Shown: one piece after another, positions 3,371-59,123 of the stretch
Layout: each line of letters opens with the position of its first letter
Numbering within the stretch: the first letter of the stretch is position 1
From: Candidatus Saccharimonadota bacterium
Lineage (GTDB): Bacteria; Patescibacteriota; Saccharimonadia; Saccharimonadales; Saccharimonadaceae
Reading direction: 5' to 3'
Assembly (NCBI GenBank): GCA_017404725.1
Contig: JAFRBS010000022.1
Location: 1-64,000, forward strand
DNA: 64,000 nucleotides
The notes under the pieces: generated by a model
Databases searched by the model: none
Told to the model about the DNA's origin: nothing
What the model saw: the letters and a program-made list of their open reading frames with translations, nothing else
Made by a program: the position numbers and the translations under genes

Positions 3371-4771
3371 ATGGAAGGCATGAAAAATATCGAAAATAGC
3401 GCAAACCAGGGACTCCAGGGCGAATGGCAAAAATTAGCCGAAGACTACGAAAAAGCTCCGTCGTTTGACGAACTCATGGAGAAAATCAGCGCCACGGATA
3501 TTTCTGTCTTAACTAGTCAGAACAATACGAACAAAGAAGAAGCTAAGGCTGAATTTTTCGAGAACCCGAACTTAAGGAAGCCGAACAACCGCTGGGACAA
3601 ACTCAATGGCCCAAAATATCAGCAGAACCTTGAAACCTTGACAGAGGTCGAGAAAGATGTTAAAACTGGGTTTTTATCACAGCCAGAAAGAGCGCTCGCC
3701 GAAACCGTTTCGGGATTTATTACATTAAAAAACGAGTTGGCGTTATCGAGTTACAACTATAACAACGCCGAAAATGCCGAGGATAAACTCGTCGCCGCGC
3801 GCGAGCATGACCGCGTGAATAAAGAGATGTACGGCCTGCCGGATAAGGATACCTTCTATTCGCTTCTAGACCAGAAAATCAACTCCATCGATTATGACGG
3901 GTTGTCGCCAGAAGACAAGGCCGAATACGACGAGATGATCGAGATGATTGGCGAGCGAGAAATTCCAGAAAAGCCCGCCTATCGTCCAAAAGAAGAGACG
4001 GTTAAGCAATTTGGTGAGATGATCGAGATGTTTTATGGCAATCTTTTTCAGCACATCCCCGAGGGGAAAGAGGCTTTTACGACCGCCGAAGCCAGGGACA
4101 TTATGAACGAGGCGATCGCTGAGGAAATTGGCCCGGAAACTGGATGGAAAGTCGAACTTAATTCGAAATCCGGCATGGCGTCGGTAAATCCTGACAAGAA
4201 GACGGTTAAATTGCCAGAAAAACGCAACATGGGCGACTATACGCGGACAGCCTTAAAGGCCATTTTGGCACACGAGCTAGGAACTCACGCCATGCGGAGC
4301 ATTGCTTATGAGGAAGCGAATATCGATGCCTTTAAAACTTCGGTATTTCCTGGTCGGGAAGTCTCGGAGGAGGGGATCGCGAAGGCTATGGAGCAGGCTA
4401 TCGCCGGGACTTACGACGACCCGACGAATACTGCCCCGACGCGCTATATCGAAATCGGCTTGATTGAGCATAAAAATACCGATTTTCGCCAGACTTTCGA
4501 GATTATTAAGCGCCTAGAACATCTGACTGGCGGCTGGAATGAAGATATGTGCTTCGAGAACGTCCAGCGCGCCTTTAGGGGGACCGGAGAGTTATTGAAC
4601 AGTAAAGATTTAGCCTATTATAACGGCAATATCGAAGCCTGGAAATACATCGAAGGACATCTCGACGATCCGAATTTGTTCGATGATTTGTTTTTGTCCG
4701 GCAAGACGGACCCATTTGACCAGGATCAACAGCGCCTAACTTACGAAATGAAAACCGGCAGTCTAGCCTAG
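3371..4771 (+). CDS. DUF1704/MATCAP-like zinc metallopeptidase
   Basis: 466 residues, no signal peptide. The C-terminal half carries HELGTH (301-306) inside ILAHELGTHAMRS, then EEGIA (333-337), which corresponds to the QEGLA motif of DUF1704 proteins. The eukaryotic members (MATCAP) are tyrosine carboxypeptidases with the HExxxH plus EGLA zinc site; the bacterial substrates are not known. The N-terminal 200 residues are acidic and helical. The start is uncertain: ATG 3371 is almost at the predicted first transcribed base, while ATG 3380 is an alternative. It is monocistronic, divergent from the GT-GH57 operon. Confidence 0.75.
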   Translation: MEGMKNIENSANQGLQGEWQKLAEDYEKAPSFDELMEKISATDISVLTSQNNTNKEEAKAEFFENPNLRKPNNRWDKLNGPKYQQNLETLTEVEKDVKTGFLSQPERALAETVSGFITLKNELALSSYNYNNAENAEDKLVAAREHDRVNKEMYGLPDKDTFYSLLDQKINSIDYDGLSPEDKAEYDEMIEMIGEREIPEKPAYRPKEETVKQFGEMIEMFYGNLFQHIPEGKEAFTTAEARDIMNEAIAEEIGPETGWKVELNSKSGMASVNPDKKTVKLPEKRNMGDYTRTALKAILAHELGTHAMRSIAYEEANIDAFKTSVFPGREVSEEGIAKAMEQAIAGTYDDPTNTAPTRYIEIGLIEHKNTDFRQTFEIIKRLEHLTGGWNEDMCFENVQRAFRGTGELLNSKDLAYYNGNIEAWKYIEGHLDDPNLFDDLFLSGKTDPFDQDQQRLTYEMKTGSLA

Positions 4772-10836: not shown

Positions 10837-13800
10837 TTCCAAACTTTCGTCTAAATCCGACGGTTCAGATTTGAAACCGTCCGATTTTGTGCACCTCCAT
10901 AACCATACGCATTATTCGCTTCTCGACGGTTTAACGAAAATCCCGGATTTAATCGGCTTTGTTAAAGATTCCGGCATGGAGGCGGTCGCGGTAACCGACC
11001 ACGGCACGATGTCTGGCCTCGTCGAACTCTATAAAACTGCTTACGATAAAGAGATTAAGCCGATTTTAGGCATTGAGGCTTATGTCGCGGCGAGAAAACT
11101 GACCGACAAAGACCCGACCCATGATAAAGAGCGTTTCCATATCACGCTCCTCGCCATGAATAATAAAGGCTACGAAAACCTTTGCCGCATGGCGACTGAG
11201 TCCGAAGTGAACGGGATGTATTATAAGCCGCGGATCGACCACGAGCTGATGGAAAAGTATAACGAGGGCATCATCTGCCTTTCCGGCTGCGCGAGCTCCG
11301 AGATTTCCGTTTGTCTAAAAGAGGGCGATTATGAGCGCGCGAAAAAGCTAGTCGACTGGTACTCGAAAGTTTTTAAGGATCGTTTCTATCTAGAGATGCA
11401 GGACCATGGCCACCCTGATTCGCCGACTCATTGGGCTTCCCAGAATCGTATTAATGAAGGGCTCCAGAAACTCGCGAAAGAAACTGGCCTGCCGCTCGTC
11501 ATTACTTGCGACGGGCATTACCTAAAACACGAAGACCAAGATGCGCACGAGATTCTACTTTGTGTCGGTACCGCCAGTAATCTTTCCGACCCGAACCGTA
11601 TGTCGCTTAAAGATTTCGAACTCCACGTTATTCCGCCGGAGGATATTATTAAACGCTGGGGCAAAGATTTTCCGGAAGCGATCAGGAATACGAAACGTAT
11701 CGCCGAGCGCTGCAACGTCGATCTTCAGCTCGGGCGGATTTTGATCCCGAAATTCCCAGGCATTCCGAAAGGCGATGACGAAAAGTCCTATCTTGACAAA
11801 TTAGTATTTCGTGGTCTAGTATGCAGATATGCCGGGAAGACCGAGGAGGAAGCTGAAAAATTATCCGTCGAAGATTGCCGAAAGTTACTCGATCAGCCAG
11901 TTCTCGACCGCATCGATTACGAGCTTAAAACTGTCGATAAAATGGGTTATAATGGCTACTTCTTAATCGTCCAAGACTTCATCAACTGGGGTAAAAAACA
12001 GCGTATCGTTTACGGCCCAGGGCGCGGTTCGGCGGCCGGCTCGCTCCTCGCTTATGCTTTAAGAATTACTGAGTTAGACCCTCTAAAATACGACCTGCTT
12101 TTCGAGCGGTTCTTAAACCCAGACCGCATCTCTATGCCAGATATCGATACCGACATCCAGGACACTCGTCGCGACGAGGTAATTAAATATTGCACCGAAA
12201 AATACGGCCGCGGCCGGGTTTCGAATATTGTGACCTTCGGTAAAATGATGGGAAAAAGCGCGGTCAGGGATGTCGCCCGCGTCATGGAAGTTCCGTATGC
12301 CGAATCCGATCGTATCGCGAAACTCGTTCCGGATCCAGTCATGGGTCATCATGTTCATCTCCAGGATGCGGTCAAAGAAGACCCAGATTTAAAGCAGGAG
12401 TATGAAACGAACCCGACCGCGAAGGAGGTAATCGACTTCGCCTCCCAGCTCGAGGGCACGATTCGTTCGCATGGTGTCCACGCTTGCGGCGTCATCATCG
12501 CCCCGGACGATCTCGTAAAATATCTCCCGCTCGAAGTCGCCCGGAAAACCGGCGCAGACGGCGAGATGGTCCTCTCTGCCCAATTTCCGATGACCCAAGT
12601 CGAAGAGCTAGGCCTGCTTAAAATGGACTTTCTCGGTCTTTCGAACCTCTCGGTCATTAATAACGCCCTGCGCATGATTCGCAAAGTCTATGGCGACGAC
12701 ATCGATATGTACTCTGTTCCGCTCGACGATAAAAAGACTTTCGAGCTTCTTCAGCGCGCCGAAACGACCGGCGTCTTCCAGCTTGAATCTGCCGGCATGA
12801 AACGCTATCTGAAAGATCTGAAGGCCTCAACTTTCGAGGATATTATCGCGATGGTAGCGCTCTACCGTCCTGGCCCGATGCAGTTTATCGACAGCTTCAT
12901 TCGCCGGAAGCATGGCAAAGAGCCGATCACCTATCTTCACCCCGGCCTAGAAAATTCCCTGAAATCGACTTATGGAATTCTGATTTACCAGGAGCAGTTC
13001 ATGCAGATTTCGCGCGAATGGTGCGGCTTTACCGGCGGCGAATCGGACACTCTGCGTAAGGCGGTCGGTAAGAAAAAAATCGATCTAATGGCGAAAATGA
13101 AGCCGAAATTTGTCGAAGGCGCGCAGAAAGTCGGCGGCGCGACAAAAGAGCAGGCCGAAACTTTCTGGAACCAGCTCTTAGACTTTGCAAACTACTGTTT
13201 CAACAAGTCCCACGCCGCGTGTTACGCCTTAATCGCGTACTGGACCGCGTATCTTAAGGCGCATTACCCCGATGCTTTCATGGCAGCGCTAATGACGTCT
13301 GATATGCGCTGGACCGATCGCCTGGCGATTGAGATCGCCGAGAGTAAACGCATGGGCTTAAAAGTCCTCGGCCCAGACGTCAACGAATCGTACGGCGATT
13401 TCGGCATCGTTAAAGACAAGAAAACTATTCGCTTCGGGCTCTCCGGCGTCAAAAATATGGGCAAGGGTTTAATCGAGGATATCGTCATTCCGGAGCGCGA
13501 TAAAAACGGGCCGTTTAAGTCGCCTTGCGATTTTAGTAAGCGCGTTAATTCCACAAAGTTTAACAAAAAATCTTGGGAGGCTGCGATCCAGACCGGCGCG
13601 TTCGATCGCTTCGCGAAGCCTGGTCAAGACCGCGGCAGCTGGCGTTCGGATTTACTATTCAACTTGGAAGCCATCCAAGGCTACGGAGCGAAAATCCAGA
13701 AAGACACCGCTTCGGGTCAGACGGATTTGTTTGGCGCGTTCGGCTCGGCTGGTGAGGTCCCAGAGCCAGAAATGAAGCCTGCGCCGACGAAAATCGATGA

Positions 13801-32831: not shown

Positions 32832-32840
32832 AAACAAAAT

Positions 32841-32879
32841 AGATAAAAAACAAGCCCGAAAAGGGCTTGTTTTTTATCT
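32841..32879. terminator. Bidirectional terminator after rpoC
   Basis: A perfect 17-bp stem (32841-32857 with 32863-32879), loop five bases, with AAGCCC/GGGCTT at its centre and A/T runs outside. Its T-run provides the -35 box of the rplC promoter. Confidence 0.9.
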
Positions 32880-33100
32880 CAGAGTATGCTAAGATAAAAA
32901 TAGTATATTCTAATAAGTAGGACATACCGCTAGACGCAAGATGTAAGTCTGGGTGGTTTGGCCATTGCCGAAAAGCGATCGCCACTCCCGAAGGAAACTG
33001 CTCATAAGTCTAGTTTCAGTCATGTTTTGGACCCTTTTCTAGTCCTACGGGGAACAAAACAGGGCTAAAGAATATCACTAATATTAACGAAAGGAAACAG
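32867..33100 (+). promoter_or_regulatory. Promoter and structured leader of the ribosomal protein operon
   Basis: TTGTTT (32867-32872), 17 bases, TGCTAAGAT (-10 at 32890-32895). The leader of about 200 bases has an outer stem GTAGGAC/GTCCTAC (32917-32923, 33042-33048), an inner CTAGAC/GTCTAG (32930-32935, 33008-33013), and a hairpin GGC-c-ATTGC/GCGAT-c-GCC in 32951-32988. GCTAAAGAATATCA (33064-33077) lies 37 bases before ATG, as in rpoB. A ribosomal protein binding it for autoregulation is the likely role, by inference. Confidence 0.65.
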
Positions 33101-57719: not shown

Positions 57720-57941
57720 TTGCGCTTTCTGGACGAAATGTGCTATACTAGAGCTAGCAATTCCTAGCAAGAATTGGTAAGTAATGTATTCACGCAGTCT
57801 TCGGACGAAGGTGCAATTAATGCGGCCGTTCAGTAGTGCTGCATTCACCTTTGTGGATACATGCGCGATTCTTGCTAGGAAAGCTGGACGGTCGCATTTT
57901 TTGATAGCGGCCTCCGAATAAAGTAAGCATTAGGAGGTAAA
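57720..57941 (+). promoter_or_regulatory. Leader RNA with interleaved terminator and anti-terminator
   Basis: TTGCGC (57720-57725), 18 bases, TGCTATACT (-10 at 57744-57749). A long rod can form: CCTAGCAAGAAT/ATTCTTGCTAGG (57763-57774, 57868-57879), TGTATTCAC/GTGGATACA (57785-57793, 57853-57861), AAGGTG/CACCTT (57808-57813, 57846-57851) and AATGCGGC/GCTGCATT (57819-57826, 57838-57845). A competing 13-bp stem TGCGGCCGTTCAG/CTGGACGGTCGCA (57821-57833, 57884-57896) is followed by T6. The two cannot form together, the layout of an attenuator or riboswitch. Ligand unknown. Confidence 0.65.
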
Positions 57942-59123
57942 ATGAACTATCAAAACGTTAATATCAAGATCTTAATCTCTTCTTTAACGCTTATGCTTTT
58001 TGCGGCTGGCGCCGCCAGCGCCGTCTCCGCAACCTCCGCCTCCGGCACCACTCGCATAGAGATGGAAGTCGCCACGGCGATCGCCATGAAAATCGTTTCT
58101 CCGAACGATGTCGACCCAGATTGTATCGCGGAAGCCGGCGTAACCTACGGCGTAGCGAACAGATACGCCAGCAGCACCGGAGACAATTCCGGCAAGGTAG
58201 TCGATACCTTTAACGGCAACGTTGGTGAAGCTGATGAGATTAACGCCAATACCTCCTGTTCCAAACTCTCCATGGCCCCGAACACCTTCGACTCTACCTA
58301 TTCCGACGTTACTGTTTATACAAACTCTCCGTCTGGTTATGCCCTAACCATACAGCCAGCAACCGGCGAAAGCGCCGACCTAGTCAATGTCTTAGACGGT
58401 ACTAAGACGATCCCAGCCGGCGTGTTAACAGAGAGTAGCGGCACAGTTATCGGCGGCCAAAACCTCTGGAGCTATAAGACCGATAATGGCCTCCCTACCT
58501 CCTGGACCGCCATGACTTCCTCCCCGGCGACGATTAAGGCTTATAGCCAAGAAACCTCCAGCGGCGATACGACGCGAGTAACCTACGGCGTTAGCGCCGG
58601 CACCAACCCTTCAGGAACCTATAACACGACCTTAACTTATACTGCTACGATGTTTGATGGGCCTAACCCATACGTAGGCAATATAGAAACAAATACAGTA
58701 GCGAACCTAACAGTTTCCCCAACCTCCCTAAAGATCGCCAGAAACCAGTCTAAGACTTTAACCGTAACCCCAGCAGAAGGTTATTACTTAAGCGAAGTTA
58801 CCTGCCCTACTGGTTATGCTTGTTCTGGATATACTACCGATAAATCAGACAGCGCTTCAGCCGAACCTCAAGACATTACGGTTAAGAATGAATCTGCCTC
58901 CTCGACAGCCGCTACGGTTGGGCTGGAGGTTGAGAAACTGGCGCCGGAATTCTTTGAAATTACGACGATGCAGCAGATGACCCCGAGCGTCTGCAATTCC
59001 GTTCCAACGCCATCAGCATCCGCTACAACGTCCATGACGGCCGCAAATTACGATTCAGACCTTCTTGTCGAGGGCGGGTCTTATGTCGCACAAGGTTGCT
59101 TGTGCGACATAAGGGTGCTATAA
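57942..59123 (+). CDS. Secreted surface protein, apparently lacking its FISUMP domain
   Basis: 393 residues. A signal peptide ends near ASAVSA. Ser/Thr-rich beta domains follow, then a Bacterial-Ig-like region (NLTVSPTSLKIARNQSKTLTVTP) and TTMQQMTPSVCNSVPTPSASATTSM. In FISUMP surface proteins of this lineage such a region normally leads into the FISUMP domain. Here the frame ends after 20 more residues, inside a perfect 14-bp inverted repeat. AGGAGGT lies before ATG. It is preceded by the attenuator-like leader. The truncation is inferred from family pattern, not from alignment. Confidence 0.7.
   Translation: MNYQNVNIKILISSLTLMLFAAGAASAVSATSASGTTRIEMEVATAIAMKIVSPNDVDPDCIAEAGVTYGVANRYASSTGDNSGKVVDTFNGNVGEADEINANTSCSKLSMAPNTFDSTYSDVTVYTNSPSGYALTIQPATGESADLVNVLDGTKTIPAGVLTESSGTVIGGQNLWSYKTDNGLPTSWTAMTSSPATIKAYSQETSSGDTTRVTYGVSAGTNPSGTYNTTLTYTATMFDGPNPYVGNIETNTVANLTVSPTSLKIARNQSKTLTVTPAEGYYLSEVTCPTGYACSGYTTDKSDSASAEPQDITVKNESASSTAATVGLEVEKLAPEFFEITTMQQMTPSVCNSVPTPSASATTSMTAANYDSDLLVEGGSYVAQGCLCDIRVL
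59080..59113. repeat. Perfect 14-bp inverted repeat at the end of the truncated gene
   Basis: CTTATGTCGCACAA (59080-59093), loop ggttgc, TTGTGCGACATAAG (59100-59113). It encodes the last residues of the 57942 protein. The loop and right arm supply the -35 (TTGCTT, 59097-59102) of the gatC promoter, with TATAAT at 59119-59124. It has no U-run. Confidence 0.85.

Follow-up and report, generated by a model that had tools for sequence, protein, structure and literature searches.

A candidate two-fold leader RNA ahead of a surface-protein gene in Saccharibacteria and a family of similar leaders in its relatives

Attenuating riboswitches and leader RNAs choose between two mutually exclusive folds, one of which is a helix followed by a U-run, ahead of the gene that they control. 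The leaders described here resemble them in having exclusive predicted folds, a helix with a U-run and a place before a gene that may be controlled. They differ from them in having no match in Rfam and no ligand pocket that we recognise, in placing the 5' arm of the putative terminator in the apical region of a rod that begins at the transcript 5' end, and in reaching up to 54 copies per genome. In the attenuators and pseudoknots of the pT181 and IncI plasmids, which are controlled by antisense RNA, the loop of a rod pairs with a downstream stretch. The present leaders share this pairing, the order A-B-A'-B' of the paired segments and possibly a specificity that diverges between copies, but they precede chromosomal surface genes rather than replication genes, and a simple consensus scan listed no promoter-like site on the minus strand between 56401 and 59230, around the leader under study. 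T-box leaders, which are represented in Rfam, likewise set a terminator against an antiterminator in a long structured leader, whereas the leaders considered here stand before genes that are not amino-acid genes. A search of Rfam 15 (4227 families) gave no match for either leader type, with scores far below the gathering cut-offs, in agreement with the initial annotation of this DNA, which had recognised no known riboswitch class; a Trp_leader label was rejected (16.1 bits against a cut-off of 41).

Another comparison is Rli51 of Listeria, the 5' leader of a virulence gene, which is reported to act as a transcription attenuator and to give rise to an RNA that works in trans (PMC11394854); it is a single locus in another phylum, set beside the present leaders by its description only. 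Passages of a further paper name riboswitches only as possible tools (PMC11665869). Open-access titles and the opening lines of abstracts on Saccharibacteria, Patescibacteria and CPR mention no such leader RNA, and this kind of switch seems to be undescribed.

The window, that is, the whole 64-kb stretch of DNA analysed here, carries the leader at 57757-57941. Scored for a stem whose loop pairs with the 3' flank, this locus ranks highest on both strands of the window (72.0), the next separate site reaching 57.5 and Markov sequence (0.96 Mb) at most 55. Its features are listed below, with their basis in brackets; C28 is a paralogous leader in the same genome.

57741..57749, plus strand: extended -10 promoter element TGCTATACT (read from the sequence)
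57761..57776, plus strand: A, the left arm of P1, the outer stem of the rod (fold, complementarity)
57784..57793, plus strand: left arm of P2, pairing with 57853-57862 (fold, complementarity)
57797..57806, plus strand: small side hairpin GTC-TTCG-GAC, forming a three-way junction (fold)
57807..57813, plus strand: left arm of P2b, pairing with 57846-57852 (fold)
57819..57834, plus strand: B, the apical segment, of which 57819-57826 is the left arm of P3 (all 16 nt pair alternatively with B')
57838..57845, plus strand: right arm of P3 (fold, comparison with C28)
57846..57852, plus strand: right arm of P2b (fold)
57853..57862, plus strand: right arm of P2 (fold, comparison with C28)
57866..57881, plus strand: A', the right arm of P1 (complementarity, comparison with C28)
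57883..57898, plus strand: B', the 3' arm of the alternative, putative terminator helix, directly after P1 (complementarity, shuffles)
57897..57902, plus strand: T6 run (read from the sequence)
57907..57912, plus strand: GCGGCC, able to pair with 57890-57895 within B' (putative B''-like element)
57910..57919, plus strand: GCCTCCGAAT, able to pair with the Shine-Dalgarno region 57929-57938 (putative role)
57932..57937, plus strand: Shine-Dalgarno sequence AGGAGG (common to three paralogous genes)
57942..59123, plus strand: gene for a secreted surface protein of 393 aa, with its ATG at 57942 (translation, paralogue comparison)

The rod that the initial annotation had drawn in this leader is borne out by its stability. 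The stretch 57752-57882 folds with a minimum free energy of -55.5 kcal/mol (z -7.44; 0 of 200 shuffles equally stable), and together with the downstream part it reaches -62.1 kcal/mol (z -5.99). The alternative helix between B and B' consists of 16 consecutive pairs, three of them G-U; B' starts 1 nt past the end of P1, the helix runs into the T6 run, and none of 1000 shuffles of the 35 nt downstream pairs as well. What had been described as a 13-bp terminator stem followed by T6 does share the P3 arm 57819-57826, but it actually has 16 pairs, and the proposed pseudoknot between CGTTCAG and CTGGACG exists as a pairing but is the other half of this same B:B' helix. The computed energies are -54.6 kcal/mol for the rod fold and -45.1 kcal/mol for the B:B' fold. 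By reading, P1 begins 11 nt past TATACT, and the extended -10 element, the Shine-Dalgarno sequence and the ATG lie at the expected places; a sigma-70 promoter scan did not report the site at 57741-57749. An ATG frame of 33 codons opens at 57820 within the leader, and an insertion in C28 shifts it.

The protein encoded behind the leader begins with a segment that reads like a signal peptide, and a domain search found no domain in it. Its N-terminal domain has 11 matches in its own genome (G000), which form its family, and five of these carry rod leaders, namely C11 (that of the window), C28, C15, C30 and C17. By reading, L039, L042, L044, L045, L046 and L047 have short or ordinary leaders, and the Candidatus Saccharibacteria relatives L048, L049 and L050 are without a rod leader. 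Relative to the FISUMP paralogue on C30, the window protein has a short C-terminus. Its gene carries a perfect 15-bp inverted repeat, CTTATGTCGCACAAG-GTTG-CTTGTGCGACATAAG (59080-59113), at the 3' end, where this early end of the protein falls.

The C28 leader is 79% identical to that of the window, and a DNA search through 60 genomes returned no other full-length relative. Each of the 37 rod pairs is present in both leaders, seven of them through compensatory changes on both sides, while slid-register controls keep 31-49% of cells; B together with its flanks, B' and the T-run are identical. This likeness spans the promoter and continues into the coding start, as in gene duplication, and a mobile element is therefore not favoured. 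The C15, C30 and C17 leaders follow the A-B-A'-B' plan too, but in other sequences. Local alignment shows some sharing between C30 and C15 (z 5.2), a weak signal between C11 and C15 (z 2.8) and no likeness between C11 and C30 (score 21 vs 25.2 shuffled); the C30 and window genes have the same Shine-Dalgarno sequence and first codons, and their protein domains are 72% identical. In each of the five leaders, P1 (16-18 nt) and B:B' (16-21 nt) belong to the strongest self-complementary stretches, and B:B' surpasses 1000 of 1000 shuffles. Behind B', C11, C28 and C30 have a U-run, which C15 and C17 lack. The initial annotation had made the fate of the structures in homologous leaders a touchstone of its reading, and the leaders before the paralogous genes keep both.

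Two further traits of these paralogous genes deserve record. In C28 and C15, the Shine-Dalgarno sequence and start codon are enclosed in a long hairpin formed with the signal-peptide coding sequence (GGAGGTAAAATGAAC / GTTCATTTTACCTCC), with some 30-45 pairs and a modelled pairing probability of 1.0 for both elements; the start-codon hairpin is found at L021 (about 4509-4549 with 4615-4659) and L022 (about 2265-2307 with 2373-2417), and the window and C30 genes are without the coding stretch that forms it. Runs of about ten G occur in L049 (about 2865-2890, in the spacer between -35-like and -10-like elements), in L046 on the minus strand near the start codon, and in L081 downstream of the leader. 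Judged by their sequence, these runs look as if they served phase variation of paralogous surface genes by strand slippage.

Similar leaders were found in other genomes with a motif-free detector of a stem plus a loop paired to the 3' flank, scored against a Markov background of 0.96 Mb. The five G000 leaders score 69-77, compared with at most 55 in Markov sequence. A reversed-sequence control was discarded, as the reversed strand re-detects the complement of the other strand, and Markov sequence and dinucleotide shuffles were used instead. The detector found leaders in two more species, namely in G007 (L035/L055) and in G009 (three in L057/L058), each ahead of a gene for a secreted protein. 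Eight matches scored at least 60: four leaders (L058 twice, L057, L055), L069 inside an open reading frame, and three complementary readings of a leader (L058 minus twice, L061 plus). The L009 minus match is a tRNA region by its sequence, and the L014, L028 and L004 minus matches, in or beside open reading frames, were set aside.

The B and B' segments of the G007 and G009 leaders agree with those of C30 and supplied a search pattern. In its strict form the pattern matches 38 of 174 genus genomes, with up to 32 copies per genome; read backwards, it gave no match among those listed for the 174 genomes. Since every purine/pyrimidine combination is allowed at the variable places, the pattern does not force variable matches, although it does fix the invariant B/B' positions. 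Many copies lie some 120-330 bases from contig ends (G005, G009, G012, G023, G088, G099, G118), as if the assemblies were broken in repeated downstream surface genes, and true copy numbers may be higher.

From these matches 91 distinct leaders were collected, of which 86 have a clear P1 (L083, L088, L091 minus, L139 and L160 were dropped for a weak one) and 77 were aligned (L084 and L095 failed a length filter; L085, L129, L135, L136, L137, L138 and L140 were left out by hand for length or variety). In the alignment, 96.6% of P1 cells are paired and 15 of 16 pairs are doubly changed; for B:B' the figures are 99.2% and three pairs. Covariation amounts to 0.546, against 0.190 in shuffled alignments (0 of 500 reach the observed value) and 0.05-0.11 in slid registers. 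All 86 leaders have a -10-like hexamer no more than 20 nt upstream of P1, with a spacing of 3-6 nt in 79 and a preceding TGN in 73, which places the family at the probable start of the transcript. Downstream, 71 of the 76 readable open reading frames have a hydrophobic segment within their first 110 residues, compared with 124 of 323 background frames, and the FISUMP domain appears at or near cut-offs behind C30, L058, L057 and L035. One same-plan leader with T6 (L015 minus / L061 minus 11154-11290), within the genus, precedes a gene (MNSERIMTSIKTATP...) whose product does not look secreted.

In 56 of 86 leaders a stretch similar to the first part of B recurs behind B', and pairing of the stretch after B' with B' averages 24.3 vs 14.7 in shuffles, 52 of 86 leaders beating all 40. 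In the genus type, B with its preceding base reads NTG or ACG, then Ala, Pro/Ser and stop, with ATG in 45 of 86; this reading is probably forced by the B:B' pairing and by the search pattern, which forces the stop. As regards a translated leader peptide of the trp type, ATG frames of at least 8 codons starting 5' of B occur in 22 of 86 leaders, and an SD-like motif precedes B in 5 of 86.

The arms of P1 pair with their own partners (cognate score 36.4 vs 13.3 for non-cognate arms), and the left arms are on average 38% identical, also within one genome. Because the arms are so diverse and pair only with their cognates, the rods are private to each leader, and B and B' are common. The 12 nt that follow B are complementary to the 3' strand of their own rod beyond expectation (11.80, vs 9.68 with sd 0.23 after exchange of strands between the 86 leaders; none of 300 exchanges reaches the observed value), whereas the same segment shows no excess against the left strand of the rod (8.98 vs 9.12). 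The excess is seen again in G088 taken by itself (20 leaders), in the set of G108, G118, G084 and G005 (19 leaders) and in that of G189 and G080 (16 leaders), with 0 of 200 controls reaching it each time. Since the segment after B pairs with the 3' strand of the rod, that strand has two partners, and the second fold would join this pairing to B:B' in one long hairpin ending at the U-run. Both folds are stable, with mean energies of -54.2 kcal/mol for the rod fold and -43.5 kcal/mol for the B:B' fold, the rod fold being the lower in 84 of 86 leaders. Two mutually exclusive predicted folds are, by this evidence, under selection in the family.

The leader of the window has the shape of the family, with P1 behind the -10 element, B:B' with a gap of 1 nt and a U-run. 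The covariance model R1, run on it with filters off, gave 4.9 bits for a mis-registered stretch only, and the model R2 of a second type described below gave no match. R1 finds the C30 leader at 67.8 bits (E 4.3e-15), C30 being one of the 77 rows of the model, and the C17 leader weakly at 16.3 bits (E 0.033), all R1 and R2 E-values resting on a short calibration; it does not find C11, C28 or C15. Matches of R1 at 16 bits in L021 and L022 fall on the start-codon hairpin and were rejected as leaders. A third model, R3, built from C11 and C28, matches only these two, in their own genome, among the 174 genus genomes. Because no covariance model of the family matches it, we file the window leader as family-like and not as a proven member; by its sequence it appears to work like the family, in the same place as a family member occupies before its paralogue.

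A covariance search ahead of other surface genes, as the initial annotation had proposed, is productive in relatives and leaves the window leader itself unmatched. In a fuller R1 search of 11 chosen genomes, with up to 150 candidates scored in each, matches numbered 54 in G088, 49 in G080, 48 in G189, 42 in G193, 28 in G118, 26 in G108, 18 in G009, 16 in G005, 13 in G007, 4 in G460 and 1 in G000, so that as many as 54 stand in 0.9 Mb, mostly ahead of secreted surface proteins. The wide covariance searches scored 7 to 16 candidates per genome; R1 matches 46 of the 392 genomes sampled from the order, with only 7 candidates scored per listed genome.

The R1 matches beyond the genus are of a second type, TGTCTTAAG...CTTAAGACACCTTGCGGTGTCGTTTTT, for which R2 was built from 18 leaders (L203 and L208 come from the genus). 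Its B:B' helix covaries on its own, with 5 of 13 pairs doubly changed. R2 matches 63 of 198 genomes of the taxonomic family, spread over 30 of its 53 genera. In a phylum sample it matches 17 of 380 genomes, including one of the same class and four of further families; the leaders of these five distant genomes follow the same plan with a U-run. Among the second-type and distant leaders with a correctly placed U-run (30 leaders; rows L194, L219, L221 and L227, in which a wrong T-run had been taken, left out), 29 have a short hairpin of at least 5 pairs between the end of P1 and B' that also ends at the U-run. The neighbouring genes include a Tsp45I-type restriction enzyme with a methylase (L197), a type III system (L206), an HsdR/MmeI-like protein (L225), a DNA cytosine methylase by reading of its translation (L228), OmpA-like proteins (L204, L208) and a DUF4352 protein (L193). 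As second open reading frames there are a metallo-beta-lactamase resembling the PADLOC PDC-M48B and LmuA models (L195) and an HSP70 (L205). The first open reading frames of L191, L195, L196, L198, L200, L201, L205 and L207 gave no domain match. A pattern search of viral contigs found neither the window type nor the second type. In the window itself, a weak R2 match lies at 32840-32924 on the minus strand (21.3 bits, E 0.099).

The comparison of sequences establishes both predicted structures, their conservation, their mutual exclusion across the family and their apparently promoter-proximal place before surface genes. We consider it somewhat more probable than not that the leader is a cis-acting transcription attenuator in which P1 of the rod is the antiterminator. 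P1 begins close behind the probable start site; if the rod were not formed in time, B would pair with B' before the U-run and polymerase would stop at about 57902, and in the family the segment after B would then pair with the 3' strand of the rod to give the single long hairpin. If the rod won, transcription would continue into the surface-protein gene. B:B' would be the terminator and the rod the ON state, with the balance presumably set by a ligand, a protein or only the speed of transcription. Given the lower energy of the rod fold, termination would be a matter of kinetics, decided by transcription speed or by something that holds the left strand. The paralogous leaders and the covariation in the family support the original suggestion of attenuator-like, mutually exclusive structures before a surface gene. 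Against an attenuator count this greater stability of the rod, the lack of a sequence match between the window leader and the family models, and the finding that the C11/C28 sequence type occurs in 1 of 174 genus genomes, its own; and because C15 and C17 are without a U-run after B', a purely transcriptional reading does not cover them.

Because the short hairpin between the end of P1 and B' also ends at the U-run, the roles could be reversed, such that a hairpin of the 3' end of P1 with the 3' half of B' terminates and a B:B' pseudoknot with the folded rod permits passage. The frequency of the short hairpin in second-type and distant leaders speaks for this, as do the genus-type leaders, where it has 5 pairs in 76 of 91 and 4 in 13 of 91, and B' would be expected to nucleate on B before the 3' arm of the short hairpin exists. 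However, by reading, the window leader and C28 are without the short hairpin, B:B' too runs into the U-run as terminators do, and the reversal gives no role to the pairing of the post-B segment with the rod; we regard it as unlikely. It is quite improbable, in our judgement, that the rod is a 5' guard stabilising an abundant surface-protein mRNA, with B:B' as a compaction pseudoknot and no regulated termination. The position of P1, which begins a few bases at most from the probable start of the transcript, the great stability of the rods and the lack of a U-run in C15 and C17 would suit such a guard, but a guard has no use for a B:B' helix of 12-16 bp that runs up to a U-run, or for another partner of the 3' strand of the rod.

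Control could also lie in translation, with B' and the stretch behind it governing the Shine-Dalgarno sequence. In the window, 57910-57919 is complementary to 57929-57938; in C28 and C15 the Shine-Dalgarno sequence and start codon are held within a long hairpin with coding sequence; and C28, C15 and C17 could work in this way without a U-run. Masking of the Shine-Dalgarno sequence is, however, built differently across the five leaders (in C30 it would lie within B'), whereas B:B' is common to all; we hold a translational switch to be very improbable. Lowest in probability we place a leader that, once terminated, is a source of small RNA acting in trans on other leaders: the numerous leaders of one genome have B and B' segments that hardly differ and rods that are private, as this would have it, but the covariation of B with B' within single leaders shows pairing in cis.

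Attenuation in cis remains our preferred reading, and its extension to a genome-wide network, in which up to 54 leaders per genome share a key (B/B') and keep private locks (the rods), is speculative and rather unlikely. If it were true, stopped leaders would be small RNAs whose B or B' pairs with any other leader, surface genes would affect each other's read-through with few displayed at once, and a further branch of this RNA class would govern restriction-modification genes and membrane genes throughout the phylum.

Patescibacteria, the Saccharibacteria among them, have very small genomes and live on host cells, and to our knowledge the regulation of the proteins that they display to their hosts is largely unknown. 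The leaders would form a large undescribed class of RNA ahead of surface genes, with kin before restriction-modification genes elsewhere in the phylum. The family offers a testable handle, with a defined candidate stop site, two folds and compensatory changes that mark the important pairs. The copies ahead of cell-surface genes in relatives point to a widespread way of choosing which proteins are displayed.
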